NCBI RefSeq assembly: GCF_033126985.1
Contig: NZ_AP024714.1
Span: 124,001-188,000 of the forward strand
Direction: 5' to 3'
Length of the DNA stretch: 64,000 bases
Origin: Methylomarinovum caldicuralii
Lineage (GTDB): Bacteria > Pseudomonadota > Gammaproteobacteria > Methylococcales > Methylothermaceae
Shown here: positions 30,201-50,784 of the stretch, piece after piece
Position numbering within the stretch: the stretch's first letter is position 1
How the letters are laid out: the number at the start of each line of letters is the position of its first letter
Translations under genes and position numbers: made by a program
Notes under the pieces: model-generated
What the model saw: the letters and a program-made list of their open reading frames with translations, nothing else
The model's database searches: none
Told to the model about the DNA's origin: nothing

Positions 30201-30484
30201 CCGAGGACGAGATCGCCTTCTATGACGCTCTCGAGGTCAATGACAGCGCGGTGAAGGTGCTGGGTGACGAAACCCTGAAAAAGATTGCCCAGGAACTGGT
30301 GCAATCGGTCCGACGCAGCGTCACCGTGGATTGGACCCAGCGGGAAAACGCCCGCGCCAAGATTCGCGTCATGGTCAAGCGGATTCTGCGGCGGTTCGGA
30401 TACCCACCGGATAAACAGGAGCGGGCAACCGAATTGGTTCTTGAGCAGGCAGAAGTATTATGCAGGGAATGGATTGTTCAATAG
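27263..30484 (+). CDS. hsdR: Type I restriction endonuclease subunit HsdR
   Basis: 1,073 residues, intact. The N-terminal nuclease domain has the PD-(D/E)xK core with VIELKNP (about residue 159) preceded by [10 protein letters not shown]. The SF2 motor has [10 protein letters not shown] (Walker A, about 350), [11 protein letters not shown] (DEAH box, about 453) and later FTGTPIE. A helical C-terminal region mediates assembly. Translocates DNA and cuts unmethylated sites. Its stop overlaps the convergent lysozyme gene of the prophage by seven bases, marking the edge of the prophage remnant. Confidence 0.95.
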
Positions 30485-30927
30485 GCCAATGAAGAGTAAT
30501 TTGCTGCCTCAGCAGTGCGGCGTTTAATGAGCCCTTGAAGACGACGTCCTCCCGCCCACACCCACCGCATGAACTCCCTTGGCACCTGGGCATGCTCCTC
30601 CCGGTTCACCTTCCGCCGTAAGGTGGACCGCTGAAGTGCCCCGGTGCCAAGGTTGAAGGTGAAAGATACCAGCGCGTCGAACTGGCCGTCAGTAAGTGGT
30701 ACGTCGATCAGCCGCAGCACGCCCCCCTCGGCCCATCGTACGTCCCTTTGCAGAAGTTCCTCCGCCTCTTGCTCATTGATGCCGTCCTCGAATCGTTTCC
30801 ACTCCCCCTCCTGCACCACATGGCCATAACCGATGGTCGGATAGCCCGCCGGGCAGATGTAGATCGTAGGACTGAACCTCTCGAACCGCTTGATGAGCTC
30901 CAGGTCTTCCTGGGTGATGTGCCGCAT
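30478..30927 (-). CDS. Phage lysozyme (GH24 endolysin)
   Basis: 149 residues, no signal peptide seen. The catalytic Glu lies in KRFERF (about residue 16), followed by [14 protein letters not shown], the GH24 signature in the subgroup that has Cys at the T4 Asp20 position. C-terminal [10 protein letters not shown] and RRTAEAANY are typical. Degrades peptidoglycan at lysis and would depend on the holin encoded just upstream. Confidence 0.9.
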
Positions 30928-31741: not shown

Positions 31742-32092
31742 TTAGACGCTGATGCCAGGGCTCCAGCCCGTGACCTTGTAGGCCGAGAGCAGGTCCTCAT
31801 CCTCGACGTAGCAGAGCCAGCCGACCCTCGGCGCGTGGAATTCCCAGGTCCCGCCGATCCGAACGGCGATCTCGCCGTCACGGCCCGTCCAGGCGCCGGT
31901 TGCCCCGGCCGCCACGATGTAGCGGTCGCCGTCGATCGGGCTGGCCGGCGGCGCGGTCAGGGAGCGGCTCTTGACCGACAGGCCGACCACGGCGCCGAGG
32001 CGCTTGAGGTTGGCATCCATTGCGGTGTGCCAGCCGGACTCGCCCAGCGCCCAGCCGTAGGTGAGCCCGAGATTGGGATCGGTGTTGGCCAT
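31742..32092 (-). CDS. DUF2793 phage protein
   Basis: 116 residues with the DUF2793 pattern: NLGLTYGWALGESGW near the start, then a compact domain with GDRYIVAAGATGAW and W-EFHAPRVGWLCYVEDE. Found downstream of tail-tip genes, probably a fibre or tail-tip accessory. Overlaps the tail-tip gene by one base. Confidence 0.75.
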   Translation of the reverse strand: MANTDPNLGLTYGWALGESGWHTAMDANLKRLGAVVGLSVKSRSLTAPPASPIDGDRYIVAAGATGAWTGRDGEIAVRIGGTWEFHAPRVGWLCYVEDEDLLSAYKVTGWSPGISV

Positions 32093-34350
32093 CAGATGCC
32101 TCCGTAGTAATTGCCGTACTGGTAGCCGTAGCCGGCGCGGTCCACCTCTATGCGGTGCCGGTGCAGGCTGTCGAGGGCACCGCGCTGGGCATCGATCTCC
32201 ACCGTGAGGTGGCCGTTGAGCCGTCCGCCGGGCAGCGCGCTGTCGGCTGCCTCCTCGGGCCAGCCGTCGGTGGTCGCAGTGAGGCCCGCGCGCGTGCGCA
32301 GCAGCGTGCCGGCCTCGCCGTAGTAGCGGACGCGATAGGTCACGCCCGGCTCGGGGCCGATGTCGCCGTCGGTCTGGGCCACCAGGTAAGCGGTCTGCTG
32401 GGTGCGGTCGCGATGGGACCAGGCGAGCGTCACGGGCCCCACGATGGCGACTGGATAGGACGCGCCGTTGATGCGTACATTGCCCGGCGGGAACGGCAGG
32501 CCCTGCCGGCCCGTGAGGTTGAGGGTCGGCCCGCCGGTCACCGCGACCTTGTTGCCCACGTCCGTCACGGTGTGAGGCTCGAGCCAGACCCCGATGCTGG
32601 TCGCCGGGGCGCGAACGGTGCCGTCATACCCCGGCGAGGGTCCGGCGCCGATCAGCCAGGTGCCGGCCGTATGCGCCACAGGTACAGTATCGAGCACCGC
32701 CCGTTGCAGGGTGACGGTGCCCGCGGTCTCGTCTACCGCGAGCACTCCGACCGCCTCGGCGGCTTTGCCTGCGGTGGTGACCAGCCAGGCATAGTCGCAA
32801 TCGGCGAACAGGGCGGCGTCGGTCAGATCGGTGACCGCTACCGTCACGTCATCCACGGCCTGGGGCAGATCGGCGCCCAGCCGCGCGGCCGGACTGTAGC
32901 CGGCGGTGTTGCGATACTCAGCCGTACCCGCGGTGTCGCCGGAGTAGAGCCGCCACTCGCTCTGGGCCTGTCCATTGCGAACCGCCAGCGCGGCGACGTA
33001 GGTGTCGGTGTCCTCCACCACACCGAGCTCTGCCCGGCTCAGGGTGTGGGCCAGATCCCAGTACGTCGCCTCGATCGCCACGCTCATCGTCGGCACTTGT
33101 GCCGAGGTGTCGTCCGGCACCCAGTTGGTGTCGTTGTCGCCGATGATGGCGTTCTGCCCCAGTGCGAAGACGTCCTCCACGCAGGTGAGCGTCATGCTGT
33201 GGTCGGTGTGATCGCCCAGGTCGATGGCGCCTACCCGCAGCACCATCTCGGCGATGCCCAGTTCCGGCCAGTCGAGCACGATGACGTCCCCCGGTAGGGG
33301 TTGGCCTGAAGCGGAACTGTCACCACGGGGATTGATCTTCAGCTTGACCCGGGCCAGCGGTATCGAGAGCGAGCGCAGGTCGCGCAGGGCCACTTTTGCC
33401 GCCAGGGCGTCGTCGGTGATGCCCGGATAGTCCCGCTTTTCCGCTACCACGCCGCCCTGGGCCTCGATGTTGGCGAGGTTGTGGACGGTGAGCGACTTGG
33501 GCTTGCCGGTGTCCCGGTCGGTGTAGTTGACGGTCAGCTCGTTGACCGTCTCCGCCCAGTCAGGCCGCTCGAACGATTCCAGTGCGATGATGTTGTGCGG
33601 CCCGAAGTGGCGCGCGTTCCACAGGTCCGGCTCGCGGATAAGGCGCAGGGTGAACCGCCCGCTGGCGTCGATGACCAGCACACCGCCGATGTGGTCGAGC
33701 ACCTGCTGCACGAACTGCTCGATGGGCGATTGTCGGGTCCAGAGCAGGTTGAGGCCGAAGGACTCGTTGTAGAGCGTCCACGAGGCGGACGAGAAGCTGC
33801 CGGTGTCGATCATGTCGGGCGGGTAGCCCATTCCCCACCGGGTGTCGGTCAGACAGGCATAGAGGATGGCCGCCGGGTTCATGCCGTTGGCCAGTTGCAC
33901 CTGGTAGCTGCTGAACGGACTGGGCGCGGCCGGATCCCAGCCCGACAGGAACCGCCGCACCCGGGCCGCGATGGGTTTGAGGTAAGGGTTGTTGGCAGCC
34001 AGGTAGCACTTGCGCAGCACCAGCCCCACCACGCCGCGGAAGGCCGGCACGGTGCCGCCGCCGGCCATGCGGGACTGCAGGTAGTCGTTGGCCGTCTGGG
34101 TCGCCTCGCCCAGCAGCACGTCGATGGCGCCGCTGATACCGCCCTCGCGCTTCTCACCGCCGAACAGGTTGGGCCGGTCGATCTGCAAGCGCTTCGGATT
34201 GCTGCCCGCCACGCTGCCGCTCCAGAAAGTGCGCCCCTGCATGCGCAGCTCGGTGATGTCGTCCACCGGACCGTGGCAGAGCACCAGGTGCATGCCCATG
34301 TAGTAGCGGTAGCCGACGATCTGCTTGCTGCCGCCGCTGCTACCGCCCAT
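32092..34350 (-). CDS. Tail tip / host-specificity protein (gpJ-like)
   Basis: 752 residues. The N-terminus (KQIVGYRYYMGMHLVLCHGPVD) and the tail-hub region (EQFVQQVLDHIGGVLVIDASG, then LRLIREPD) match the central tail-tip proteins of siphophages; fibronectin-like beta-rich C-terminal modules follow. Contacts the host receptor and forms the tail tip. Last large tail gene, preceded by two small assembly genes in overlapping frames. Confidence 0.75.
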   Translation of the reverse strand: MGGSSGGSKQIVGYRYYMGMHLVLCHGPVDDITELRMQGRTFWSGSVAGSNPKRLQIDRPNLFGGEKREGGISGAIDVLLGEATQTANDYLQSRMAGGGTVPAFRGVVGLVLRKCYLAANNPYLKPIAARVRRFLSGWDPAAPSPFSSYQVQLANGMNPAAILYACLTDTRWGMGYPPDMIDTGSFSSASWTLYNESFGLNLLWTRQSPIEQFVQQVLDHIGGVLVIDASGRFTLRLIREPDLWNARHFGPHNIIALESFERPDWAETVNELTVNYTDRDTGKPKSLTVHNLANIEAQGGVVAEKRDYPGITDDALAAKVALRDLRSLSIPLARVKLKINPRGDSSASGQPLPGDVIVLDWPELGIAEMVLRVGAIDLGDHTDHSMTLTCVEDVFALGQNAIIGDNDTNWVPDDTSAQVPTMSVAIEATYWDLAHTLSRAELGVVEDTDTYVAALAVRNGQAQSEWRLYSGDTAGTAEYRNTAGYSPAARLGADLPQAVDDVTVAVTDLTDAALFADCDYAWLVTTAGKAAEAVGVLAVDETAGTVTLQRAVLDTVPVAHTAGTWLIGAGPSPGYDGTVRAPATSIGVWLEPHTVTDVGNKVAVTGGPTLNLTGRQGLPFPPGNVRINGASYPVAIVGPVTLAWSHRDRTQQTAYLVAQTDGDIGPEPGVTYRVRYYGEAGTLLRTRAGLTATTDGWPEEAADSALPGGRLNGHLTVEIDAQRGALDSLHRHRIEVDRAGYGYQYGNYYGGI

Positions 34351-34782: not shown

Positions 34783-35622
34783 TCAATATGCGCTTTCGTT
34801 GAACGGGTTCTTGCGCGGGATCCAGGGGAACCCGCCGAAGTTGTCGGCGTTGCCGAAGCGGCTCTGGCAGGTCTGCAGGGTGTGGTCGCAGCCGGCGTAG
34901 AGGTTGACCGTCTCGCCCGGATGCAGCGGCGCCGGATAGATCAGGGTGATGCCCGATCCGTAATAGTCGCTGTGCTCGATCATGTGCCGGGTATCGTCGG
35001 CGCGCTCCAGATAGCCGCCCGCAAAGCGGTCCGGCGGGAAGCTCGCCCCTTCGAACCAAATGAGCCGTCCGTCCACCTGCGACACGGTGAAGGATTCAGC
35101 CACCGGCGTCGCCCGGCACTCGGCGCCGTAGAGCACGTGCGGACAGCGCCGGGCATAGAGCCGGCGCAAGCCCAGCCGCTTGAGGCTGATGCTGGCCGGC
35201 TCGCAACGGATGCGCGCCTCCCGCTCCTCGAAGATCACCTGCAGCACCCGCCCGGTCCAGACCAGTGCCCAGCCCCAGTCGCTGCCGAAGCGGCGGTAGA
35301 TGCTCACGCCCATGGGTTGCGGCTGCGGCGCGCCGCGATAGTCCCGCACCAGGTCCAGGTCCCGCGGACAGCGCAGGTCGATGGAGCGCCGGCCGGCCTC
35401 CGGGCCCAGCCCGAGACTGCCTCGCGAGATGGCCGCGGGCCGATAGGTCCGGTCGCCGTTCCAGTCCACGTTGGCCACCACCTCGCGGCTGGCCGAGGTG
35501 TAGTACCAGGCAGTGGTTCCCCGGGTGAAGCGGTAGAGCTCGGTGACGTCGTCGGTGTAGCAGTGGAAGCCGGGGCCGGACGGGATCTCGCCGCCCGGCG
35601 GCCGGCCGATCGGGATCGGCAT
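34783..35622 (-). CDS. Phage BR0599 / DUF2163-family tail protein
   Basis: 279 residues. The C-terminal signature is clear: YAGCDHTLQTCQSRFGN followed by NFGGFPWIPRKNPF, with CPHVLYGAEC upstream; these Cys residues are conserved in the BR0599 domain. Belongs to the tail hub next to the gpJ-like protein. Confidence 0.85.
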   Translation of the reverse strand: MPIPIGRPPGGEIPSGPGFHCYTDDVTELYRFTRGTTAWYYTSASREVVANVDWNGDRTYRPAAISRGSLGLGPEAGRRSIDLRCPRDLDLVRDYRGAPQPQPMGVSIYRRFGSDWGWALVWTGRVLQVIFEEREARIRCEPASISLKRLGLRRLYARRCPHVLYGAECRATPVAESFTVSQVDGRLIWFEGASFPPDRFAGGYLERADDTRHMIEHSDYYGSGITLIYPAPLHPGETVNLYAGCDHTLQTCQSRFGNADNFGGFPWIPRKNPFNESAY

Positions 35623-35637: not shown

Positions 35638-37131
35638 TCAGAACGGAATGTCCCCGCCGCCACGCAGGTAGGGATGGCAGCGCGCCAGGGTCATGAACCG
35701 CGCGGCCACTTCCAGCACCTCATTGGTGTGCCAGGTGAACTCCACCCGGTCCTGGTCGAGCCGGGCGAAGTGCAAAGGCGTGACGGGCGTGCCCACCGGC
35801 ACGTCCACCGGCAGCGGATCGGCCAGCAGCAAACGCGCCTTGGTCTCTGACTCGGCCTCCAACCGCGAGATGCGCACAGCCACCGGCGGCTGGCCCGCAG
35901 GTCGGATCAGCAGTCCCAGCCCGGGGTCTTCCCAGTGCCAGGGCAGCCGGGCCCGGCGCAGCAGCAAATAGTCGTCCCCGGCCATGGCTGTCTGCGCCAA
36001 CGCCAGCCCCGTGAACTCGTCCGGCAGCCAGACGGGGTTGAGGCGTCCGGCCAGATACTCGAACAGTCCCAGCAGCCGGTTGGTGGCCGACTGGCCCGCC
36101 GCCAGCCAGCGGCGGCTGAGGATGCGGGAGGGTCGATCATCGACCCGTCGGATCCACGGCCGGCCGAGACGGTTGTCGATCCGCTCGATCCGTGCCTGGT
36201 ACTCGATGGAGGGCTCCGGCTGCCACTGCTCGGCATCATGGATGACCGGCACGCTCTCGAGGGTGAGTTCCGGGGTGAAAGGCCATTCCCACACCCGCTC
36301 ATCGAGCCGGATCTCGACCGGCTGCGAGGTCACTGCGGCACAGTGGCGCCGGGCGGTGGTGGCATCAGGAATAACGCCCCGTACCAGCGGCGCGAAGGTC
36401 GAACCGGCTTCCACCGGTCGGGCCAAGGGCAGCGTCAGGTTCGCCAGCTTCTGTGCGGTGTCGAAACCGGTGACCATAACCTGCTGCACGTCACCGTCGG
36501 GCGCCCGGATCAGCGCCGGTCCCTGGCCCCAGCTATCCAGCGCCTCGGTCTGGATGGCGCGCATCAGGGGCTCGGTCACCGCATCGAGCGGGACGGTCGT
36601 GCTGCCTGCGGCCGCGTTTGCTGTCACCCGGCGGGCCACCGGCCAGACCGGAAACAACGCCTCGCGGCCCTGGTGCCCGGTGAGCCAGGCATCCAGGCCG
36701 ATGGCCCCGGCATCCCAGGCCGTGACCAGCATCTCCACGGCCCGGCGCGGATGGCGGCGCAGACGGATGCGCGACTCGGTGCCGTCGCGCGAACGCAGGA
36801 TCTGGGTCTTCCACTCCCACCGCTCCACCCAGGGCTGCGACCAGTCGTGCCGGAAGGCGAAGATCCCCCGCGGCGGCGGCTCGCGCCAGACCACCTCGAT
36901 GAGGGTGGCGAGCAGCGCAACGGGTGGATCCGGCCGGGCCGTGGCCTCCGCGTCGAGGGCATCGACCTGAGCCAGCGGATCGGGCCGGACCGCGGGCTCG
37001 ACGACCTGCTGAAGCAGATCCGACGGCGGCAGCGGCCGTGCCGCCGGTTCCAGCAGCGCCTGATCGAGTTCGGTTCCGGCTACCCCCTTGCTCGCCGGCT
37101 CGATCGCGACCTGATCGACCTGCGCGGCCAT
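35638..37131 (-). CDS. Phage tail protein, unassigned
   Basis: 497 residues. The first 85 residues are a Pro/Asp/Ala-rich low-complexity stretch (ARPLPPSDLLQQVVEPAVRP); the rest is folded and resembles phage minor tail proteins with FRHDWSQPWVERWEWKT and a C-terminal VEFTWHTNEVLEVAARF. Placed between a minor tail gene and the BR0599 gene. Function not identified. Confidence 0.6.
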   Translation of the reverse strand: MAAQVDQVAIEPASKGVAGTELDQALLEPAARPLPPSDLLQQVVEPAVRPDPLAQVDALDAEATARPDPPVALLATLIEVVWREPPPRGIFAFRHDWSQPWVERWEWKTQILRSRDGTESRIRLRRHPRRAVEMLVTAWDAGAIGLDAWLTGHQGREALFPVWPVARRVTANAAAGSTTVPLDAVTEPLMRAIQTEALDSWGQGPALIRAPDGDVQQVMVTGFDTAQKLANLTLPLARPVEAGSTFAPLVRGVIPDATTARRHCAAVTSQPVEIRLDERVWEWPFTPELTLESVPVIHDAEQWQPEPSIEYQARIERIDNRLGRPWIRRVDDRPSRILSRRWLAAGQSATNRLLGLFEYLAGRLNPVWLPDEFTGLALAQTAMAGDDYLLLRRARLPWHWEDPGLGLLIRPAGQPPVAVRISRLEAESETKARLLLADPLPVDVPVGTPVTPLHFARLDQDRVEFTWHTNEVLEVAARFMTLARCHPYLRGGGDIPF

Positions 37132-37385
37132 TTAGCCCGGAACCTTTGCCAGCATCCCGAGAGCCTGCGGAATTCGCAGCCGCTGGGGCGACGATGTGGA
37201 GCGAAGGCGATAGCCATAGCTATCGGCTGAGCGAACATCAAGCACCAGCGAGCGAGAAACCGCAGGAATTGGGATAGGACAGCGCCGTCCACTCGGCATG
37301 TTTGACAGATGACTGCATGCACTCATTGCTGTACCGCTTGCAAGTTATGGATACCGGCGCTGTCCGGCTGGTGAAGGTTCCGGGC
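37132..37385. other. Gap in the prophage tail operon
   Basis: 254 bp without a convincing gene although the operon is otherwise gapless. It includes a small palindrome, GATAGCCATAGCTATC, near 37210-37225. It may be a remnant of a lost gene or an inserted intergenic repeat. Confidence 0.45.
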
Positions 37386-38417
37386 TCATCCCTTCTCCAC
37401 CCCGAACTCGGCGGCGTTCAGTTCCGTCTCCGTCCAGTCGACGCCCGCGGCAGTCTGCTCGAACACCGTGGTCAGATAGGTGGGATCGGTGGTCAGCGCC
37501 TGCGCCGCGCCGGTGGCCACCGTGGCGCCGGACTGGGTCAGGGCCTTGAGGGTGCCGGCGCCGGCGTCGGTCTTCTTCGCCAGGGCCGTGACCTGCACCC
37601 CCAGCACCGTGGGCGTGTTCATCGCCGGCAGCGGCTCGAAGGCGTAGCTGTCCCGGTCGCCCGTGTTGGCGGCGGTCACATAGTCGCTGTGATCGGGCAG
37701 CGGCTCGTCGACCATCTCCCAGTTATGCCCCGCACCCGAGGGCGTCCACTGGCTGAAGCTGCCGGCCCCGGTCGGATGCAGGGCGTCGATGCGCACGTCG
37801 CCCAGGTAGTCGTTGTTGCGGGTGCCCGAACCGTCGGCCAGATAGAAGTCGTCGAACAGCAGCTCCACCGGGTACGGCTGGTCGGCCCAGCAGACACCGC
37901 CGGCGACCAGGTTGCCGCCGGTAGCGATGTTCTGGCCGCTGATCGTCAGCCAGGTCTGACTGTTGACCCGCAGCTCCAGCAGCCCGGTGCCGTTGCCCTC
38001 CACCACCTTCAGCTCGAGGTGGTTCCAGGTCTGGGCCGAGATGGCCCGCAGGGACTGGCCCGTCGGGAATCCGCCCTGGCCGATGCCCAGCAGCCCGATG
38101 GCATTGACCGACACCTCGTAGCGCTGGTTGCCGGCGGTGCGCACGAACAGCAGCGGAAAGCGGTCCGGCGGCAGCAGATCGAGACGGAAGGCGCAGCCGA
38201 GGATGATCCGGCTCACGCCGTAGCCGATCTCTCGCACCATGGCCACGCCCTGGGTATTGGCGGGAAAGCGAAGCGCGGACGAGGCACTCCGGCGTCCGGG
38301 AACCCGCTCGCACTGGGGCGCGTACTGGGCCTTGGCGTAACCGTAGTTGGGCACGCCGTCGGGCTTGAGGGCCTGGGGATCGAAGTGATCGAAGCCGTCG
38401 ACGAACAACAGTGCCAT
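37386..38417 (-). CDS. Phage minor tail protein with lectin-like fold
   Basis: 343 residues from the ATG at 38417, one base after the tape-measure stop. MALLFVDGFDHF and the beta-rich pattern up to about residue 200 (WNHLELKVVEGNGTGLLELR, LFDDFYLADGSG) look like a concanavalin/LamG-type domain found in phage tail proteins. A longer open frame extends upstream but covers the tape-measure gene. Confidence 0.6.
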   Translation of the reverse strand: MALLFVDGFDHFDPQALKPDGVPNYGYAKAQYAPQCERVPGRRSASSALRFPANTQGVAMVREIGYGVSRIILGCAFRLDLLPPDRFPLLFVRTAGNQRYEVSVNAIGLLGIGQGGFPTGQSLRAISAQTWNHLELKVVEGNGTGLLELRVNSQTWLTISGQNIATGGNLVAGGVCWADQPYPVELLFDDFYLADGSGTRNNDYLGDVRIDALHPTGAGSFSQWTPSGAGHNWEMVDEPLPDHSDYVTAANTGDRDSYAFEPLPAMNTPTVLGVQVTALAKKTDAGAGTLKALTQSGATVATGAAQALTTDPTYLTTVFEQTAAGVDWTETELNAAEFGVEKG

Positions 38418-38418
38418 G

Positions 38419-39390
38419 TCAGCCTCCCAGATATTGCCGGACGGTGGCGGCGTTGCGCCGGATGACGTTGGTGATGACCTGCTCGCCCGCGGGCGTGGCC
38501 AGGAAGTCGCCCACCAGCGACTCGTCCACGGCGTTGACCACCCGGACGTTGACCTGGGGCTTCTCCTGGCCTCTCGCACCCGGCACCAGCCCGCCCGTGG
38601 AAAAAGCAAGACTTGGCCCCCGCCAGCGTGGCGCGAAGGCCCCGCCGTTGATCGCGTCCAGAAAGGCCACGCCCACTTTCTTCACCGAGGCGGCATTGAT
38701 CACGTACTCGCCGGCGGAAAGCCGCGCCGGTATGGAGTCGGAGGTGGACGTGCCGGGGCCGGTGACATAGCCGCCGGTGGCAAAACCCTTGAATAAGGCG
38801 CCAGTGAGCCCACCGATGCTACCGCTCAGCCCCCCGAACAGCGACTGGGCCAGCTTTTGCGCGGCGATGCGGTTGATCGAGGCGATGACCGATCGGGCGA
38901 AGTCGCGGAACGCCTCCTTGGCCGACTTGGCGCCGGAGCCGATTCTCTCGAACATGGTGGCGAAGGCGTCCTGGACCTGACCCTTGACCCGAACGCCCAC
39001 CTCATCGACCACGAGCCTGGTCCGGGCCAGCTCGTTCTTCCACGCCTGCACCCGGGCGACCGCCTCCGGGCCGATGGCCCGTGCCGCCTGTTCCATGAGC
39101 GGCAGCAGTTTTTCCATCTCGGTGGCGGATTGCCGCTGGAGACGGACGATCTGCTCGCGCGCCTGGGCCTCGGTGAGCAGTCCCGCTTGCTGCTGGATGC
39201 GGATGGCCTCCTGCGCGTTGCGCATCCGCTCGGCGGTCAAGCGCCACTTCAACTCCAGGGCGTCGAGGTTGGCTTGTGCTGCCTTGACGTCGACCAGCCA
39301 CTTGGCCGAGGTCTCGTCGAGGTCGAGGCGCTCCCCGGGCGAACGGCGCTTGCCGGCATGGGTATGCGGTTTCAACAGTTCGATCTTCAT
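38419..39390 (-). CDS. Tape-measure C-terminus fused to a small phage protein (deletion product)
   Basis: 323 residues. Residues 1 to about 34 (MKIELLKPHTHAGK...ETSAKWLVD) match the start of a small stand-alone protein usually encoded after the head-tail genes. From about residue 35 it is the end of a tape-measure protein: a coiled-coil stretch (EAIRIQQQAGLLTEAQARE), then SIPARLSAGEYVINAASVKK and FSTGGLVPG. Genes normally between them (major tail protein, assembly chaperones, most of the tape measure) are gone. The fusion is in frame, so a protein can be made, but a normal tail cannot. Confidence 0.8.
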   Translation of the reverse strand: MKIELLKPHTHAGKRRSPGERLDLDETSAKWLVDVKAAQANLDALELKWRLTAERMRNAQEAIRIQQQAGLLTEAQAREQIVRLQRQSATEMEKLLPLMEQAARAIGPEAVARVQAWKNELARTRLVVDEVGVRVKGQVQDAFATMFERIGSGAKSAKEAFRDFARSVIASINRIAAQKLAQSLFGGLSGSIGGLTGALFKGFATGGYVTGPGTSTSDSIPARLSAGEYVINAASVKKVGVAFLDAINGGAFAPRWRGPSLAFSTGGLVPGARGQEKPQVNVRVVNAVDESLVGDFLATPAGEQVITNVIRRNAATVRQYLGG

Positions 39391-39396
39391 GGGGTT

Positions 39397-39840
39397 TCAT
39401 CCTCGCTGGGTGAGATCATGGGCACGGGTGCGGTAGCGGATCGCGTAGCGGGCGGGGATGGCGGCCACAACGCTATCTGCGTCCTCCACCTCCCACTCGC
39501 AGTCGAGCTCGAGTACGGCCAGCGCGAGCCCGTTCAGGCCCGGGTCGTCCATGAGCGCCGCATGGGCCGCGACCAGCAGCGCGTCGGCCTCGGTCTCGGG
39601 CGCCGCCGGCGGTACCGCACGGGCCAGCGCCACCACCCGGATCACCAGCTCCCGCTCGACCCGGTCGTTGGGCCGGTCGATTACCTCGTCGCTCTCGGGG
39701 AAGACGACCACCGCGGGCGCCTGCTCGCGGGTCAGCGCCACGGTGGGCGAACGGTGCACCTCGGCGCCCAGAGGCGCGAGACTCGCGGCAATACGGCTCA
39801 CCGCCGCTTGCAGGATCTGCTCGCGGATGGAATTGGGCAT
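39397..39840 (-). CDS. Tail terminator-like protein (gpU type)
   Basis: 147 residues. REQILQAAVSRIAASLAPLG at the N-terminus and a beta-rich core (RELVIRVVALARAV) followed by ALAVLELDCEWEVED resemble minor tail protein U/terminator families. Position after the FII-like gene fits. Confidence 0.6.
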   Translation of the reverse strand: MPNSIREQILQAAVSRIAASLAPLGAEVHRSPTVALTREQAPAVVVFPESDEVIDRPNDRVERELVIRVVALARAVPPAAPETEADALLVAAHAALMDDPGLNGLALAVLELDCEWEVEDADSVVAAIPARYAIRYRTRAHDLTQRG

Positions 39841-39847
39841 GGCGGGT

Positions 39848-40129
39848 TCAGAGACGGGTCAGCGTGGCCCGGCGTTCGGTTCCATCGCCGAGGGCGTGGA
39901 CCTCGCGCACCTGGTAGGCGCGGCCAGCGATCTGCACCGTGTGCCCGGCGGCAAGACCCGGCAGGCGCGATGCCGGGTAGCGGATGGCGTACTCGGTGGA
40001 GAGCGCGAGCCCGTCGAGCACGGGCTCGTCCGGAGCCCGGAACTCGGCCATGACGGCCGCGCCGCCGACGATCACCTCGGTGAGCAGGCCGGCGGCACTT
40101 GCCGCGTCATACAGCGACTCGAGATCCAC
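39848..40129 (-). CDS. Head-tail joining protein (FII-like)
   Basis: 93 residues with the small beta-barrel pattern (AVMAEFRAPDEPVLDGLALS, then GHTVQIAGRAYQVREVHA) and lambda FII-like position directly after the capsid gene. Connects head and tail. Confidence 0.6.
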   Translation of the reverse strand: MDLESLYDAASAAGLLTEVIVGGAAVMAEFRAPDEPVLDGLALSTEYAIRYPASRLPGLAAGHTVQIAGRAYQVREVHALGDGTERRATLTRL

Positions 40130-40136: not shown

Positions 40137-41144
40137 TTAGGCCACCACTTTGACTAATACTCCAGGGCGGTGGCACATGGGCAACGGATTGCTCTGGGTG
40201 TGCAGGTCGGTGCCGCGGTCGAACTTGCGGGGCTCCTGCTTGGCGTACAGCGGCCGGCCGAGGGTGTTGGCGGTCTCGTTGAAGTCCGCCGGCGCGAAAT
40301 AGGTGGCGAAGGTGTCCACCGTGCCGAGCGGGAAGCAGTGTCCTTCGCCCGCGGCGATGAAGCGGCGGGTGTTGCCGTCGGCGTCCACCGCCTGGCCGCG
40401 GTACTCCTCGAAGGTGATGCCGGCGAAGGTGAAGCCCGCGCGCATGTCGGTGCGCAGGGCCGCGCCGTCCTGCCAGCGCTCGTAGGCCTTCTCCACCTTG
40501 GGGTGCGAGGTGAGCGCGTCGAAGAACTCCTCGGAGACCAGGCAGTGGATGCCGGTCATGCGCTCGCCCTTGAGGTTGTCCTCGAGATGGCGCTTGATGG
40601 CGAGGCACTTCTTCTTGACGTCGGTGTTGGCGTTGCCCAGGTTGAAGTTGACCACCTTCGGGGTGATGCCGAACTCCTGGTACAGGTCGTAGAGCGTGGA
40701 GCCGTCGGCGTCCAGGATCACGCCCTTGAGCGCCCCCATGCGCAGATGCTCGAGGGTGATGGCGTGCTTGTTGCGCATGGTCTGCAGATGCTCGGCCATT
40801 ACCTGGGCGATCGTCTGCACCTCGGACTCGGCGCCGAAGGCGCGTACGCCCTGGACCTCCTCGGGGAGCACCACGTCGTCTTGGGGGATGTGCGGGATGG
40901 TGAAGGTGCGAAGGGCCCGCTTGCCGCGCTTGCCCACGGTGCCCGGGGCGCCCACCGGCAGGGTCGGCAGCAGGGTCAGCACGCCGTTCTTCTCCTCCAC
41001 CGCGATGGAGCGGAAGCGCACCGGCTTCTCGGGCATCAGGCCCATCTGCTCCAACCGGCCGTAGTTGTTGGGCAGCAGGTTGATGGCGGCGGTCAGCGCC
41101 GTCATCGAGAAGGCCGGCGACTCGAAGGGATTGTTCATGGCCAT
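40137..41144 (-). CDS. Major capsid protein, lambda gpE family
   Basis: 335 residues from the ATG at 41144. Characteristic E-family segments: FSMTALTAAINLLPNNYGR, VLPEEVQGVRAFG, MRNKHAITLEHLRMGALKG and the C-terminal RGTDLHTQSNPLPMCHRPGVL. HK97-fold shell protein. Three bases after the decoration gene. Confidence 0.9.
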   Translation of the reverse strand: MAMNNPFESPAFSMTALTAAINLLPNNYGRLEQMGLMPEKPVRFRSIAVEEKNGVLTLLPTLPVGAPGTVGKRGKRALRTFTIPHIPQDDVVLPEEVQGVRAFGAESEVQTIAQVMAEHLQTMRNKHAITLEHLRMGALKGVILDADGSTLYDLYQEFGITPKVVNFNLGNANTDVKKKCLAIKRHLEDNLKGERMTGIHCLVSEEFFDALTSHPKVEKAYERWQDGAALRTDMRAGFTFAGITFEEYRGQAVDADGNTRRFIAAGEGHCFPLGTVDTFATYFAPADFNETANTLGRPLYAKQEPRKFDRGTDLHTQSNPLPMCHRPGVLVKVVA

Positions 41145-41146
41145 GG

Positions 41147-41524
41147 TCAGACTCCTTTGCGAACGAGGATGCCGATGGCCTTGAGCTGGGCTACGGCAGC
41201 GGCCTTCTCGGCGTTGGTGATCCCGGCGGGCCACACGAGGGCGTGATCGGCGACGATGGCGTGGCGGGCGAGCAGAATGCCGTCGTCGCGATCGCCGGCG
41301 GTGGCGTCCACCGGCTGCAACAAGATGCCGGCGGCGGTCTGGCTGCCGTCGGTGGCCGCCGGATCCAGCGCCTTCACCTTGCCGGTGGCGGAGACGATGC
41401 CCACCACCGCGCCCAGGGCGAGGTTCTGGCCTGCCAAAACGGTGGCCTGGTCGCGGGAATAGAGATTGGGGGCCTCGTACTTGAGCAGGTCCCCGAGGTT
41501 CATGCCTTCGGTGATCACGGGCAT
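41147..41524 (-). CDS. Head decoration protein, lambda gpD family
   Basis: 125 residues. SRDQATVLAGQNLALGAVVG and GILLQPVDATAGDRDDGILLARHAIV match the gpD fold that caps the capsid trimers. Order S49 protease, gpD, gpE as in lambda-type heads. Confidence 0.85.
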   Translation of the reverse strand: MPVITEGMNLGDLLKYEAPNLYSRDQATVLAGQNLALGAVVGIVSATGKVKALDPAATDGSQTAAGILLQPVDATAGDRDDGILLARHAIVADHALVWPAGITNAEKAAAVAQLKAIGILVRKGV

Positions 41525-41525
41525 C

Positions 41526-42737
41526 TCACACCTCCTTGGCCGCGCGCTGGCGGGCGGCGGCTACGACGGGGTTGTCATCCAGACTCGCGGCGGGACTCGT
41601 GCGCTGCGGGTCGATGTGGCTGGCGATCTCGGGCGCCTGGGCGCGGTATTCGAGCAGGGCCTCGCGCACCGCCTCCTGGGTCATGCCTTGCGCAAGAAAG
41701 CCCGCCGTCTTTTCCGGGCAGCCGGCGAGCAGGCAGAGATCGGCGATGGCCCGGGCCTCATTGCGAGCGGCCTCTACCGCCGCGGCGATCCGCGTTTCTT
41801 CCGGTTCGGTCGGATCCGCTGCAACAGGATCGCAAGCAGCGGGATCAGGGTCATGGTGCTCCATGGTCGGTGCCTCCTGGGGTTGGGGTAAGGTTGTGTG
41901 AATCGGGGGATCGAGTTCCGCGCGCATGGCCGTGACGGCGTCACGCAGGGTGCCGATCCGGTCGGCGAGCCCCGCGGCCACCGCGTCACCGCCGAAGTAG
42001 AGCCGCGCTTCGGTATCCCGCACCGCCTCGACAGTGAGCCCCCGGTGCTGGGCCACCGACTCGGTGAAGATGCCGTAGAGGCGATCCACCTCGGCCTGCA
42101 GCGCGGCGCGGGCGTCATCCGAGAGCGGCGCATGGGGGCTGAAGTCGTTCTTGTGGCTACCGGCATAGATGGCGGTGAAGCGGTAGCCGTCCTGCTCGTC
42201 CTTTCGCGACTGGTCGGCGTGCATGGCGATGACACCGATGGAGCCGACGCCGCCGGTGCGGGTGACGAACACCTCGTCGCTTGCCGCCGCCAGCGCGTAG
42301 GCGGCGGAGAAGGCCTGGTCGTTGGCTACGGCCCAGACGGGCTTGTCACGCGTGGCGGCGCGGATGCGCTCGGCCAGTTCGAAGACGCCGCCGGCCTCGC
42401 CGCCCGGGCTGTCGATGTCCAGCACGATGCCGGCCACCGCCGGGTCCGCCACCGCCCGGTCGATCCGAGCCCCGATCTCCTGGTAGCTGGCGAGCCCCGA
42501 GGCCGCCTCCAGACCCAGCGCGCGGCGCAACAGGGTCCCGTGGATCGGGATCACGGCGATGTCGCCTTGCTGCAGGGACGATGGCCGTCTGGGACTGGTT
42601 TCGAAAGGCTGGGGCTTCAGTCCGCGCTCCGGCCAGCCGATACGCTCCCCCAGGACGGCCAGGATGATTTCCAGCTTCTCCGGAGCGATCAGCAGCGGCG
42701 TCCCGATGATGCGGGCCGCGAGATGGGGCAAGCGCAT
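41526..42737 (-). CDS. S49 (SppA-like) phage prohead protease
   Basis: 403 residues. The start at 42737 is chosen because upstream sequence belongs to the antitoxin gene on the other strand. Catalytic Ser in TRTGGVGSIGVIAMH (about residue 155-165), with DIDSPGGEAGG upstream forming the oxyanion region, and the general-base Lys near SHKNDFSPHAP. The C-terminal 90 residues are acidic and may act as scaffold, as in lambda gpC/Nu3. Confidence 0.85.
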   Translation of the reverse strand: MRLPHLAARIIGTPLLIAPEKLEIILAVLGERIGWPERGLKPQPFETSPRRPSSLQQGDIAVIPIHGTLLRRALGLEAASGLASYQEIGARIDRAVADPAVAGIVLDIDSPGGEAGGVFELAERIRAATRDKPVWAVANDQAFSAAYALAAASDEVFVTRTGGVGSIGVIAMHADQSRKDEQDGYRFTAIYAGSHKNDFSPHAPLSDDARAALQAEVDRLYGIFTESVAQHRGLTVEAVRDTEARLYFGGDAVAAGLADRIGTLRDAVTAMRAELDPPIHTTLPQPQEAPTMEHHDPDPAACDPVAADPTEPEETRIAAAVEAARNEARAIADLCLLAGCPEKTAGFLAQGMTQEAVREALLEYRAQAPEIASHIDPQRTSPAASLDDNPVVAAARQRAAKEV

Positions 42738-42794
42738 GGTTGCAAAATCTCCAGGCGTGACTACAATTGTGGTAAATGGATCGAGGGTATTGAT

Positions 42795-43025
42795 ATGAGC
42801 GTTTCCGTCCGCATCGACGACACCCTGGTGGAAGAGGCCCGCGCCGCCGCCAAGGCCGAATTCCGCACGGTCCAAGGCCAAATCGAGTTCTGGGCCAAGG
42901 TGGGCCGGGCCGCCCTGGACAACCCGGACCTGCCGGCCAGCTTCATCGCCGAGAGCCTGATGGCGATGAAAGAGCCGCGCGAGCAGGCCGAACCCTTCGT
43001 GCCGCGTACTCGCAAATCCAAATGA
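42795..43025 (+). CDS. ParD-like antitoxin
   Basis: 76 residues. Starts MSVSVRIDDTLVEEARAAAK, a ribbon-helix-helix-like DNA-binding N-terminus, followed by QGQIEFWAKVGRAALDNPD typical of ParD-like antitoxins. Its ATG lies 58 bp from the divergent protease start. Overlaps the toxin gene by four bases. Probably autoregulates the shared promoter. Confidence 0.8.
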   Translation: MSVSVRIDDTLVEEARAAAKAEFRTVQGQIEFWAKVGRAALDNPDLPASFIAESLMAMKEPREQAEPFVPRTRKSK

Positions 43026-43303: not shown

Positions 43304-44752
43304 TCAGCCCTTGGCGGTTTGCGTCGCCGCCGTCTGCTGCCGCGGATCGGAGTCGAACACCAGTCCCAGCTCGTCGGCGCGCCGGTTGTCCGCGGCGATC
43401 TCGCGATCCACGTCCTCGGCGTCGTAGCCGAAGGCGGAGATCGCCTCGGATCGGCTCATGAGCCCGGCACGGATGGCGGTGAGCAGCGCCTTGAACTCCT
43501 TCTCGGGATCCACCCACTGCCAGCCCTGCGGGATCCACTTGCAGTTGAGGTACTCCCGCCGGCGGAGGGCGAAGTCGGGCAATGGCAGCGCGCCTTCCAG
43601 CGCCGCCTGTTCCATCCAGGCGCGCCATACCGGACGGCAGAACTGGTGCACGATCACGCCGTGCTGGATCGCCTCGCAGCGGCGCCGGAACTCCAGCAGC
43701 CCCGCGCGGATACTGGAGTAGTTCACGCCGGTGAGGTCCCCGGTCAGCTGCTCGTAGGTGACGCCGATGGCGGCGGCCACTGCGCGGAACTGGGTGCGCA
43801 GGAACTCCGAATAAGAACCGCCCACGTCGGCCGGATCGGAGAACTTGACGTCCTCGCCGGGCTCCAGAATCTGCAGGGTGCCGGGCTCGAGTCCGGCCAG
43901 CGCCACGCCGGAGGCATCCGCTTCCCCTTCGCCCATGAGGTTGTCCTCCGGGCTCTGGCGGGTGATGAAGCCGGCGAACATGGCGGCGGTCTTTTTGCGC
44001 ACCAGTTCGGCGTCGTCGTACTGGTCGAGTTCGTTGAGTTTGACCAGCGCCCGCGAGAGCCAGGGCTCGCCCCGGATCTGTCCCGGCCGCAGGGGTCGGA
44101 ACAGATGGATGATCTCGGCGGCCGGCACCCGCACGGTTTCCCTATCGGCGCTGCCAGCGGGGCTCAGCGTGCCGTCCTCCGGGTGGACGCGATAGAGGTG
44201 GTAGGCGACGCGCCGGCCCAGCTTGTCGAACTCGATGCCGGCGCGGATCCGGTTGCCGTTGGGCGCCTCGGTATTCAGGGTCAGCGGCAAATGCTCGGGT
44301 TCCAGCAGTTGCAGCTGGAGCGGCACCGACAGGCCGTCCTCGCGACGGCGCGGGCGCAGCCGCACGAGGCATTCGCCGCCTTCCAGCATGGCCCGGCAGG
44401 CGAGCGCCTGCAGGCCGTAGAAGTCGGTGAGCCCCGCGCTGTCTGCCTCCTCGGTCCAGACCCACCACAACGACTGGATCGCTTTGCGCAGCTCGGCATC
44501 CTCGACCAGGCTCTGCGGCTTGATGCCGGTGCCGACGGCGTTGGCCACGAAGGCCTCGACGGCGGCCGAGGCCCAGGCGTTGCGGCGCACTAGGTCGCGG
44601 GACTTGGCGCGCAGCTCGCTGTTCGTGGCGAGCATGGCGGCCACCGCGCCGGGATTGCCGGGCGTCCAGACGACACTGCGTCGCCCGCGGCCCGCCGCCT
44701 CGTGCACGGGCGGGCTCTTGAGCCGGCTGCGGATGCGCTGGAACCAGCCCAT
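43304..44752 (-). CDS. Phage portal protein, lambda gpB family
   Basis: 482 residues from the ATG at 44752 (MGWFQRIRSRLK). Family marks: RSRDLVRRNAWASAAVEAFVANAVGTGI, EGGECLVRLRPR, and GVNYSSIRAGLLEFRRRCE. Dodecameric DNA gate at the head vertex. One base separates it from the gpW-like gene. Confidence 0.9.
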   Translation of the reverse strand: MGWFQRIRSRLKSPPVHEAAGRGRRSVVWTPGNPGAVAAMLATNSELRAKSRDLVRRNAWASAAVEAFVANAVGTGIKPQSLVEDAELRKAIQSLWWVWTEEADSAGLTDFYGLQALACRAMLEGGECLVRLRPRRREDGLSVPLQLQLLEPEHLPLTLNTEAPNGNRIRAGIEFDKLGRRVAYHLYRVHPEDGTLSPAGSADRETVRVPAAEIIHLFRPLRPGQIRGEPWLSRALVKLNELDQYDDAELVRKKTAAMFAGFITRQSPEDNLMGEGEADASGVALAGLEPGTLQILEPGEDVKFSDPADVGGSYSEFLRTQFRAVAAAIGVTYEQLTGDLTGVNYSSIRAGLLEFRRRCEAIQHGVIVHQFCRPVWRAWMEQAALEGALPLPDFALRRREYLNCKWIPQGWQWVDPEKEFKALLTAIRAGLMSRSEAISAFGYDAEDVDREIAADNRRADELGLVFDSDPRQQTAATQTAKG

Positions 44753-44753
44753 C

Positions 44754-44960
44754 TCAGAAGCCCTTGTCCGTGGTGAGGCGGATCTGGCGCACCGGCGTCC
44801 GTCCCTGATCTCGGGCCAGACTCGCATCGATCTCGCGCAGCGCCGCGCGCAGCTCGGCCACCGAGCGGTACTCCACCGTCTTGTCGCCGAAGGTCACGCG
44901 CCGCTCGCCCCGGGCCAGGGCGCGCTCCAGGGCCTCGCGGTCGGCCTGGGTCCAGGCCAT
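44754..44960 (-). CDS. gpW-like head-tail joining protein
   Basis: 68 residues. MAWTQADREALERALARGE, then VEYRSVAELRAALREID, matching the gpW family, and in the lambda position before the portal gene. Stabilises DNA in the head before tail attachment. Confidence 0.85.
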   Translation of the reverse strand: MAWTQADREALERALARGERRVTFGDKTVEYRSVAELRAALREIDASLARDQGRTPVRQIRLTTDKGF

Positions 44961-44961: not shown

Positions 44962-45083
44962 TCAGGCGCCCGCCAGCGCGGCCAGTTCCAGCACCAGATC
45001 GGTCTGATCGGTCTGGCCGTTTCGGTAGACGATCCTCGCGAAGCGACCGACAGGACGCCCCAGAACAGTGAAAGTACCCGTTC
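44962..45083 (-). pseudogene. C-terminal stub of the gene upstream of gpW
   Basis: 39 codons ([20 protein letters not shown]... ending LELAALAGA and stop) opening directly out of the intron B junction. In lambda-type heads the gene here is the terminase large subunit, but the stub is too short to identify. The rest is absent on the far side of the intron/IS66 block. Confidence 0.5.
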
Positions 45084-45656
45084 ATTGCGCCAGGCCAAGC
45101 CTGGAGAAGGAGGAAGTTATGTAGAAGGAAAGACATCGCTGAAACCTTCAGAGCGACCTGACAGGTGCAAGTCCTGTCCGGCCAAGGCTGGCCACCAGCC
45201 GGAACCGAGTGTTGCGTGGTCGAGGAGCGATCCCGACTGCGAAGCGTACACAGGGGGCCTGTAGGCCGCGTGATGGAGCCTCGAAAGTACGGAATGCGGA
45301 GCCGACGTTATTGAACGGACGGAAGGCAACAGGGGTGGTGCTGTACTGGCCTGGCATCATCCCTCCGCCGGGGTCGAAGAGCGGGGCATGCAGGGCAAGG
45401 GTCGCCCAGGAACCTGGGAGGGCTCGATCACTCCTTGCGGGAAGAGCGGTGCGGGCGCCGTGTGAGAAAAGGCCCAGGCCCATCGGAGCGGTGTCCGGCC
45501 GATGGGAGCGAACGGGACACGAAGCAGGGTACCGGCGCGCGAAGGCGACGAAGCGCGCTGGGAAGGTGATCGAGCAATCGGAGCCTGCCGATAGTACCTG
45601 GGAAGTCGGGGAACCTGCCCCAAGGGACCCGATGGAGGGAAGCGGCAGGTCGGACG

Positions 45657-46991
45657 ATGGGGCTTTCGGAGGGGCAGATGGCCGGGACATCGAGCCAGGA
45701 AAACATCTCAACACGACAACGGAAGCTAGTGGAACTGGCCCGGATCGAACCGAAGCTGGAACTGACCACGATTGCCCACCACATCGACGTGGTGTGGCTG
45801 GAAGAAGCCTGGCGGCGCACCCGCAAGGACGGGGCCGCCGGGGTGGACGGCGTGACTGCATCCCAATACGCAGCCGCCTTAGAGGAGAACCTGACGCGCC
45901 TGCTGGAACGGTTCAAGACCGGCCGGTATCGGGCGCCTGCGGTACGGCGCGTCCACCTGCCCAAGCCGGGAACGGGAAAGACCCGCCCGATCGGCATTCC
46001 CACGCTGGAAGACAAGGTGCTGCAACGGGCGGTGCTGATGGCGCTGGAACCCATCTTCGAGCAGGACTTTCTCGACTGCGCCTACGGGTTCCGGCCCGGA
46101 CGCAGTGCCCACCAGGCCCTGGAGAGGCTATGGGGCGGGCTGATGGCCATGGGCGGTGGCTGGGTCATCGACCTGGACATCCAAAACTTCTTCGACGACG
46201 TGGACCGGGACCGGCTGCGGAACTTTCTGGGGCAGAGGGTGCGCGACGGCGTGATCTGCCGCGTGATCGGTAAATGGCTGAATGCCGGCGTCATGGAGAG
46301 CGGACAGCTTCACTACCCCGAACAAGGGACACCGCAAGGTGGGGTGATCTCCCCGCTGCTGGCCAACCTCTACCTGCATCACGTGCTCGACCTGTGGTTC
46401 GAGCAGACGGTCAAACCGCGACTGCAAGGCAGCGCCTTCGAAGTCCGGTTCGCCGACGATGCGGTCCTGGTGTTCAAACGGGAAGAAGACGCCCGGCGGG
46501 TATTGGCCGTTCTGGGCAAGCGCCTGGCCAAATACGGCCTGCGCCTGCACCCGGACAAAACCCGCCTGCTCGACTTCAGAAAACCCGGACGGAAAGGCCA
46601 GAGCTTCCAATACCTGGGATTCACCCACTACTGGGGACGCTCAAGGAAAGGGCGTTGGGTCGTCAAACGCAAGACCGCCCAAGCCCGGCTCAGCCGCTCC
46701 CTGCAGGCGATCAACCACTGGTGCCGGATGCACCGCCACTGGCCGGTTGCAGACCAACAAGCGGCCCTGAGCCGCAAACTCAAGGGGCATTATGCCTACT
46801 ATGGGATCGTCGGCAACAGCCAATCGCTGGCCCGCTTCCTGTACGAGGTCAGACGGCGCTGGTACAAATGGTTGTCCCGCCGCAACCGGGAACGGATGAA
46901 CTGGGACCATTTTGGGCGGCTGTACAAACGATACCCACTCCCCCCACCGCGCGTGGTTCACGGAATTGCCCGTTGCGTAGCGACGCCATAG
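45657..46991 (+). CDS. ltrA: Group II intron reverse transcriptase/maturase, copy B
   Basis: 444 residues, intact, same motifs as copy A ([21 protein letters not shown] at about 265, no HNH domain). It carries LVELA, AALEENL and FKREED, shared only with copy C, and a private Gly-to-Ser change (GVMESGQ). Ends seven bases before domain V. Confidence 0.9.
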   Translation: MGLSEGQMAGTSSQENISTRQRKLVELARIEPKLELTTIAHHIDVVWLEEAWRRTRKDGAAGVDGVTASQYAAALEENLTRLLERFKTGRYRAPAVRRVHLPKPGTGKTRPIGIPTLEDKVLQRAVLMALEPIFEQDFLDCAYGFRPGRSAHQALERLWGGLMAMGGGWVIDLDIQNFFDDVDRDRLRNFLGQRVRDGVICRVIGKWLNAGVMESGQLHYPEQGTPQGGVISPLLANLYLHHVLDLWFEQTVKPRLQGSAFEVRFADDAVLVFKREEDARRVLAVLGKRLAKYGLRLHPDKTRLLDFRKPGRKGQSFQYLGFTHYWGRSRKGRWVVKRKTAQARLSRSLQAINHWCRMHRHWPVADQQAALSRKLKGHYAYYGIVGNSQSLARFLYEVRRRWYKWLSRRNRERMNWDHFGRLYKRYPLPPPRVVHGIARCVATP

Positions 46992-46997
46992 TCCGAG

Positions 46998-47030
46998 GAG
47001 CCGGATGCCTTAATCGGGCACGTCCGGATC
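46998..47030 (+). ncRNA. Group II intron domain V hairpin (copy B)
   Basis: 33-nt hairpin GAGCCGGATGCC...CCGGATC with the AGC-type catalytic triad region at its base; the most conserved ribozyme element. Domain VI (stem ACCGCGGG/CCCGCGGT, candidate bulged A in GGTCACCC) follows to 47066. Equivalent positions exist in the other copies. Confidence 0.75.
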
Positions 47031-47070
47031 TGTGGGAACCGCGGGTGAGCAATCGCCCGCGGTCACCCGG

Positions 47071-48571
47071 CCGGTCTTGCCAAGTGCCTGAAGATTCAGG
47101 AGAATGCGGGCCATGGAAAGACTTGATCTGGACCTGAGCCGCCCACCTCCCTTGCCCGGGACGGTGGAGGAATGCCACCGGGTGATCGAAGCGCTTTGGC
47201 GGGCGCTGGGAGAATTTCAGCAGATCCAGGCGCGAGTGGAAGAACTGGAGGAACAGTTGGCCTTGGGGTCCGACAATTCCTCCCAACCACCTTCCCAGGA
47301 CAGCACGAAGAAGCGCGCCGAGCGCAAGGGCAAGCGACCGACGGGACGCAAGAAAGGGGCGCAGGTGGGACATCCCAGGCACGAGCGGGCTCTGGTTCCG
47401 GCAGAAGCAGTGGACGAGGTCCGGCATTACTTTCCCCATGGCCGCTGCGAGTGCGGTGGGTCGGTGGCGGTGCGGGGATTCCGTCCCCATCAGGTGTTCG
47501 ACCTGCCCGAGATTCGTTACCGGGTGGTCGAACACCGGGTGTATGAAGGCCGCTGTGGGTGGTGTGGTCAGAAGCACCAGGGGCGGCTACCGGATGAGGT
47601 TCCCCGCGGCCAGATGGGACCTGGGCTGGTGGCGTGGATTGGCTTGATGACGGGGCGCTATCACCTGTCGCTGCGGGAAGTCGAAGCGCTGCTGGAAGAA
47701 CAATGGGGTCTGAGATTCAGCCTGGGGGCGATCAGCCAGAGCCAGATCCCGCTGCAGGCGTGGCTGGGTCCGGTCTACAACCAGATTGGCGAGGCGGTCA
47801 GAAAAGCGCTGATCGCCCATGCCGACGAGACCCGCCACTACCGGGGCCGCAGCATCTATTGGCTGTGGGCGCTGACGACCGATCAGATGGCGTATTTCCT
47901 GACCCATTATTCCCGCGGCAAGGGTGCGGCCGGTGAGCTGTTGGGGGATTTCCAGGGAATCCTGGTGACCGACCGCCACGGGGCCTACAACGACCATCCC
48001 CAGGACTCACACCAATACTGCTGGGCGCATCTCATCCGCAACCTGGAACGGATCGCCGGGCGCAAGGGACAGGCCGGCGAAGATGGCGAACGCCTGCTCC
48101 GGGCCGCCCGCCTGACGGTTCACTGCGGCAAGCTCTGGCAACAGAGCCATTACCCATCCGACCGCTACCGAAGGCGATTGGAACGCCTCAAAGCCCTCTT
48201 CCGGCGCGAACTGGAACAGGCCGCCCAAAGACATGGCGACAACAAAACCGGTCGCAGCTGCCGCAAGTTGTTGGACGATTTTCCCAGGTTCTGGACCTTC
48301 CCGGACCATCCCGGGGTACCGATGACCAACAACACGGCAGAGCGTGCCCTACGCCCCTATGTCATCTGGCGCAAGACCCGTTTCTTCAGCCAGTCGCATC
48401 GCGGTGACTGCTTCCGACCCATGATCCTGTCGCTGGTCGAAACCTGCAAGCGCCTCAAGATCGGCGTCTATCAGACCCTGCGGACCATCTGCGCCCAGGG
48501 CATGGCAGAGGGCGAGGTCACCTTCCGCCTGCCCCTGCCGGAACCTCAACCACTTCCAGTGGCAAGCCCGG
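47071..48571 (+). mobile_element. IS66-type element, copy 1
   Basis: 1,501 bp between intron junctions. Tips form short inverted repeats CCGGTCTTGCCA and CCGGGCTTGCCA. A single transposase gene; no TnpA/TnpB accessory genes. No target duplication can be assigned because both tips touch introns. Confidence 0.75.
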
Positions 48572-48579
48572 CCGGGTGA
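47113..48579 (+). CDS. IS66-family transposase, copy 1
   Basis: 488 residues. N-terminal coiled coil (VEELEEQLALGSDNSSQPPSQ), zinc-binding part (CECGG, later CGWCG), and the DDE core: Asp in HADETRHYRG (about 236), Asp in VTDRHGAY (about 286) and Glu in NNTAERALRP (about 405). AGGAG precedes the start. The stop codon (TGA at 48577-48579) lies inside intron C, so the element alone would encode a different C-terminus. Confidence 0.9.
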   Translation: MERLDLDLSRPPPLPGTVEECHRVIEALWRALGEFQQIQARVEELEEQLALGSDNSSQPPSQDSTKKRAERKGKRPTGRKKGAQVGHPRHERALVPAEAVDEVRHYFPHGRCECGGSVAVRGFRPHQVFDLPEIRYRVVEHRVYEGRCGWCGQKHQGRLPDEVPRGQMGPGLVAWIGLMTGRYHLSLREVEALLEEQWGLRFSLGAISQSQIPLQAWLGPVYNQIGEAVRKALIAHADETRHYRGRSIYWLWALTTDQMAYFLTHYSRGKGAAGELLGDFQGILVTDRHGAYNDHPQDSHQYCWAHLIRNLERIAGRKGQAGEDGERLLRAARLTVHCGKLWQQSHYPSDRYRRRLERLKALFRRELEQAAQRHGDNKTGRSCRKLLDDFPRFWTFPDHPGVPMTNNTAERALRPYVIWRKTRFFSQSHRGDCFRPMILSLVETCKRLKIGVYQTLRTICAQGMAEGEVTFRLPLPEPQPLPVASPAG

Positions 48580-50558: not shown

Positions 50559-50784
50559 GAAAGGACACGGAGCGGTCCAGGGCCACGGTATCGTCGCCGG
50601 CCGGGGTACCGCCTCCGGCCGCGGCCTGGTGATCTATCGACAGAATGGTCAGTGGCGCTATCGCAAAGGTGAAGGCACCGTTTCCGGACAGGGCATCGCC
50701 ATCGGCCGAGGCGCCGCCCGCGGCCGCGGCGTTGCCGCCGGCCAGGGACGCGCCAAGGGCCATGGCCGCAAATGGCCGTTCTGA
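50559..50784 (+). pseudogene. 3' end of a glycine hexapeptide-repeat protein
   Basis: About 75 residues visible, cut off on the left by intron C. Regular GxGxxx units: GHGAVQ, GHGIVA, GRGTAS, GRGLVI, then a short non-repeat (YRQNGQWRYRKG) and GQGIAI, GRGAAR, GRGVAA, GQGRAK. An ATG straddles the junction (50557-50559), so a short peptide could still be made. No family recognised. Stop is one base before the DUF1800 start, so it was the first gene of that operon. Confidence 0.6.

Follow-up and report, generated by a model that had tools for sequence, protein, structure and literature searches.

The window analysed here, a 64,000-nucleotide stretch of the genome of Methylomarinovum caldicuralii (contig NZ_AP024714.1, positions 124,001 to 188,000), carries a series of minus-strand phage genes that are summarised, together with the features interrupting them, in Table 1. 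The portal, protease, decoration and capsid genes are recognisable and occur in phage order, as in a lambda-like prophage. Between the head genes and those for the tail and lysis lies the subject of this study, an ORF combining parts of two phage genes. Genes for DUF2793 and DUF6127 proteins are also located downstream of this ORF, and the tail and lysis frames found there are open, as a preliminary description of the locus had noted.

Table 1. Prophage genes and associated features, with their positions in the window
Feature	Position	Strand	Details and basis
Phage lysozyme (PF00959)	30478..30927	-	Last residues differ from relatives at host junction
Phage tail protein (PF13550), open frame	32092..34350	-	Pfam, codon analysis
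Tail assembly protein (phrog_778; PF09356)	34783..35622	-	PHROGs, Pfam
Tail assembly protein (phrog_1082), open frame	35638..37131	-	PHROGs
253-bp element, ~20-bp imperfect terminal inverted repeats	37134..37386	.	Missing from L016, L024, L025
phrog_2448 protein, downstream of tape measure, open frame	37386..38417	-	PHROGs
DUF7210/tape-measure fusion ORF	38419..39390	-	323 aa, 323 codons; ORF list, Pfam, PHROGs
Tape-measure-derived part, last ~293 residues (L016 tape measure ~763-1055)	38419..39299	-	L016 alignment
Novel joint, one copy of 18-bp repeat	39282..39299	-	blastn against L016, L026, L018
DUF7210-derived part, residues 1-36	39283..39390	-	PF23843 positions 1-36 of 38
Tail terminator (phrog_4204)	39397..39840	-	PHROGs
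Head-tail attachment protein (PF05354)	39848..40129	-	PHROGs, Pfam
Major capsid protein E (PF03864)	40137..41162	-	Pfam
Head decoration protein D (PF02924)	41147..41524	-	Pfam
Head maturation protease S49	41526..42881	-	PHROGs, Pfam; start codon as given by the tool, 5' end adjoins toxin-antitoxin insertion
Portal protein (PF05136)	43304..44827	-	Pfam
Head-tail adaptor (phrog_2545)	44754..44960	-	PHROGs; start taken from the profile start, listed-ORF residue 47
IS66 transposase gene (47104-48579) and two inverted group II introns	45074..50568	.	Upper end approximate

Residues 1-36 of the ORF match DUF7210 in Pfam (PF23843, E 8.7e-13), and phrog_3357, described as a small protein, covers residues 1-40. 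Tape-measure families take over from about residues 27-31 and reach the family ends, with phrog_13338 matching residues 27-182 (profile positions 539-693 of 903) and phrog_2335, a tape-measure family, matching residues 31-322 (1214-1534 of 1536). The conserved C-terminal tape-measure domain, Tape_meas_lam_C, is present over residues 138-182 (E 2.2e-5; 24.9 bits against a cut-off of 23). When compared with the nearest relative, a prophage in a Chromatiales MAG (L016, JAKRWE010000001.1), the DUF7210 part shows 85% amino acid identity to a separate DUF7210 match, and the tape-measure part shows 91% amino acid and 92% nucleotide identity. About 293 of 1055 tape-measure residues are left, and the extended N-terminal and central portion with which a tape measure spans the lumen of the tail is missing. 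The earlier assignment of the first 34 residues to a small protein of the head-tail region is correct to within the 18-bp repeat considered below (about residues 31-36), and phrog_2335, Tape_meas_lam_C and the L016 alignment all identify the remainder, as proposed, as a tape-measure C-terminus. The hybrid protein has a single match in its own genome, which is a single contig of 2.69 Mb and 99.6% complete.

The head genes are 93-95% identical at the nucleotide level to those of close relatives that keep the region lost from the window, namely L016, L026 (IMGVR_UViG_3300023440_000622) and L018 (JALSGY010000309.1). L016 and L026 share the head-gene order of the window prophage at this level of identity, and they retain separate genes for DUF7210, major tail protein and chaperone as well as a full tape measure of 1055-1060 aa, in contrast to the window prophage. 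L016 is also 92% identical downstream, whereas L026 departs from the window beyond the tape-measure gene. In blastn comparisons, the upstream flank of the three relatives aligns as far as 39282 and the downstream flank from 39299; the two alignments overlap by 18 bp and the breakpoints agree in all three of the close relatives spanning both flanks. In the relatives these 18 bp occur twice, as an imperfect direct repeat, with one copy close to where the DUF7210 gene ends and the other inside the tape-measure gene. The copies are identical at 17 of 18 positions in L016, and the window keeps one copy at the joint. At the internal mismatch, 39288, the window has the base of the tape-measure copy, while the base just before the repeat (left of 39299) is that of the DUF7210 copy, and this flip of the diagnostic bases places the crossover within 39289-39299. 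The deleted length amounts to 5043 bp relative to L016, 5118 bp relative to L026 and 4652 bp relative to L018. The alignment with related prophages that had been suggested as a check therefore maps both breakpoints, to 39282-39299, and this direct comparison bears out the earlier view that the tape-measure gene arose by a large in-frame deletion.

When the terminator/DUF7210 region of L016 is compared with its tape-measure gene for ungapped direct repeats, the breakpoint repeat ranks highest, with a score of 15, and is followed by a 14-bp match. Shuffling the codons of the left region 200 times gave scores of at least 15 in 7 cases for L016 and in 8 for L026; a repeat of such a score is not very rare by itself, and what makes this one telling is its position precisely at the breakpoints. 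It is plausible that the repeat is an accident of sequence that was later used by recombination. When read from the sequences and ORF starts, the two copies share a reading frame, encoding LIDLK in DUF7210 and LIDVK in the tape measure. Since both copies are in the same frame, any exchange within the repeat yields an open hybrid, and the retention of the frame, correctly recognised earlier, needs no later selection.

The L016 interval absent from the window contains the end of the DUF7210 gene, the genes for the major tail protein (phrog_807) and the tail assembly chaperone (phrog_1442), an overlapping phrog_13355 ORF, a phrog_6367 protein and the part of the tape-measure gene encoding residues 1-762 of 1055, the N-terminal 72%. 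The deleted-region genes are open in L016. The major tail protein and the chaperone had already been named as missing, but the loss was understated with respect to the phrog_13355 and phrog_6367 ORFs and the tape-measure N-terminus. In the window, the tail terminator is followed by the tape measure with neither major tail protein nor chaperone between them. Neither the major tail protein nor the tape-measure N-terminus, used as queries, gave a match in the 2.69 Mb genome; a positive control, covering the major-tail-protein query only, matched five of six chosen relative records, the sixth (G104) being 20.6 kb in size. The possibility that the lost genes had moved elsewhere in the chromosome was discarded because these two queries found nothing.

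The L016 prophage itself also seems, from its sequence, to be damaged. An insertion of about 1.67 kb (10267-11937), with transposase-like ORFs recognised by reading the translation by eye, interrupts its phrog_1082 gene, and its tail terminator gene (2490-2762) holds an internal stop.

Scans with the hybrid protein gave 8 loci from genome contigs and 63 from viral contigs, and many of the strong matches begin at residue 32. A survey of both strands of 94 loci, besides those of the organism's own genome, yielded matches in 85, three of them to DUF7210 only and 82 to the tape measure. The DUF7210/tape-measure fusion was seen in none of these 82 loci, in 27 of which the ORF runs off the end of the slice or contig, and a separate DUF7210 match was present in 24. 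The ORF is closed in the other 55, and in 53 of these it is at least 700 aa long; the exceptions are L055 (168 aa), where an earlier part of the tape measure probably lies in a different frame, and L082, with 683 aa and 26% identity. Tape-measure matches begin at query residue 15 at the earliest, in the weak relative L006, and next at residue 20 in L052. For three genomes of the same order (G024, G027 and G054), the tape-measure frame is about 1070 aa and the DUF7210 match lies 4-5 kb away, while nine same-genus genomes in the set of 101 searched gave no match to the hybrid. A tblastn search of a phage collection yielded 453 records; the 20 matches listed show 34.9-36.2% identity and one of these starts at query residue 32, and a further 37 records at 60-80% identity fall outside those 20.

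Given the separate DUF7210 match in 24 of the 82 loci, the fused form in none, and the same unfused arrangement in the three genomes of the same order, the state of the window is derived. An ancestral fused state, with an insertion in all the relatives, was considered unlikely since more distant loci share the unfused arrangement. A naturally short tape measure was also rejected, as no examined relative has one; related phages sharing this short gene, to which the preliminary description had pointed as evidence against a deletion, are absent from the 82 loci.

The prophage has been altered at several other positions. A terminase gene located at 2371287-2373332 of the genome contig (G000:C1), 2.2 Mb away by contig coordinates or about 0.49 Mb assuming a circular contig, is 94% identical to the L026 record and 85-95% identical to L016, and from this similarity it appears to belong to the window's prophage. 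In both L016 and L026 a single gene stands between terminase and head-tail adaptor, and here that gene is cut in both halves, beside a group II intron. A stretch of 8-9 bp is found at both cut ends (window 45066-45073), as expected of a target duplication if one IS66-type insertion split the gene. The division of the prophage is due either to the IS66/intron insertion and a subsequent large rearrangement, or to misassembly. Genes essential for a virion are lost from the locus: the queries for the major tail protein and for the N-terminal part of the tape measure found no match in the genome, and the terminase is 2.2 Mb apart.

In the window, the shared intron sequence runs inward from 45081 and from 50561. 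The intron copies extend over 45081-47082 and 48560-50561 and, on the distant side, over G000:C1 2368926-2370930, the two window copies being identified by RF02005 and the distant one by identity. This intron of about 2 kb is present in at least 32 near-full copies in the 2.69 Mb genome (40 of 121 candidates were scored). An intron(+), a 1.48 kb IS66-sized gap and an intron(-) recur at four genome sites, as if introns had entered both ends of IS66, and bare introns occur elsewhere in the genome in tandem, about 57 bp apart.

Further downstream, the 253-bp element sits at the exact boundary of two phage genes, immediately ahead of the phrog_1082 start codon, so that it parts this gene from its former leader, and no second full copy of the element was detected in the organism's own genome. 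Earlier, the tail-tip and lysis cassette had been considered to be perhaps still expressed; the genes are indeed open and, to judge from their substitutions, were constrained until recently, but the separation of the phrog_1082 gene from its leader and the location of the terminase half 2.2 Mb away weaken the proposal. Genes for a ParD-like antitoxin and a ParE-like toxin lie on the plus strand at 42798-43300, between portal and protease, where both compared relatives have a gap of only about 90 bp and neither gene. At the other end, homology to the relatives stops inside the lysozyme gene (window 30478-30548), the last codons of which overlap the stop of a 1073-aa ORF (27263-30484) that we take to resemble the HsdR subunit of a type I restriction system, and the prophage may have lost its right end as well.

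Substitutions on the branch leading to the window were counted in 19 gene segments, giving 80 nonsynonymous and 256 synonymous changes against 183 and 692 for the relatives (Fisher p = 0.28); in these pooled values a few stretches where genes overlap at their ends enter twice, and not every gene was compared with the same relatives. The tape-measure part of the fusion shows 3 nonsynonymous and 13 synonymous changes on this branch (binomial P = 7e-6 against neutrality), and the PF13550 tail gene 10 and 52, respectively. By a simple mixture estimate, 1.8% of the window branch was unconstrained (95% interval -1.5 to 5.4%). Because the substitutions are mostly synonymous the break is recent, and the pattern suggests that the prophage probably ceased only recently to be a working phage. 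The low ratio of nonsynonymous to synonymous changes fits a recent break and a still-selected fusion alike.

We consider it very probable that the fusion is a deletion scar, generated by short-repeat recombination in a recently inactivated lambda-like (siphovirus-type) prophage. The relatives carry the 18-bp imperfect direct repeat in the DUF7210 gene and again in the tape-measure gene, while the window retains one copy and lacks the intervening stretch of about 5.04 kb, and an exchange between the copies joins the genes in frame. The length of the repeat points to a RecA-independent route, by slippage or single-strand annealing. A tail could presumably no longer be made once the genes for the major tail protein and the chaperone and most of the tape-measure gene had gone, and the fusion ORF would be a by-product lacking a selected role. 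Prophages are known to decay by deletion. RecA-independent deletions between short repeats are documented for E. coli (PMC5426353) and, in cryptic or defective prophages and islands with such deletions, DNA between short direct repeats is likewise lost with one copy left and with open genes on either side, as at the window locus. The present deletion differs from these in that both copies of the repeat belong to coding sequences and are read in a common frame, and a hybrid ORF results.

Two other explanations were weighed against a deletion scar. The short fused gene could be a genuine, maintained tape measure, or another functional protein of a phage lineage or of a domesticated particle, and for this speak the open frame, the nearly complete DUF7210 domain (36 of 38 positions) and a ratio of nonsynonymous to synonymous changes on the window branch as low as among the relatives. 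However, recency accounts for that ratio, given the small unconstrained share of the branch estimated above, and a maintained fusion is difficult to reconcile with its absence from all 82 related loci, with the failure of the controlled major-tail-protein query to find a match in the genome, and with the split-off terminase; we regard it as highly improbable. A more specific version, in which the hybrid is retained because, for example, it binds the tail-tip initiators of a superinfecting relative and blocks tail assembly in a dominant-negative manner, is very improbable. Alternatively, the assembly could have dropped 5 kb at the short repeat, or the contig could merge sub-populations, and it is true that the deletion is seen here in an assembled contig and that repeats of 2-5 kb abound in this genome. 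Such an artefact is nevertheless most unlikely, because normal assemblers are not misled by an imperfect repeat of only 18 bp and the deleted genes that were queried gave no match elsewhere in a single-contig assembly that is 99.6% complete.

For annotation, the 323-aa ORF should not be described as a complete tape-measure protein, nor should the locus be counted as an intact prophage. The prophage is recently dead and undergoing ordinary decay, and it adds a new instance while leaving general understanding unchanged. As such, it provides a clean, recent and exactly mapped case of prophage tail loss, in which the breakpoints, the joining repeat and the preservation of the reading frame are all readable.
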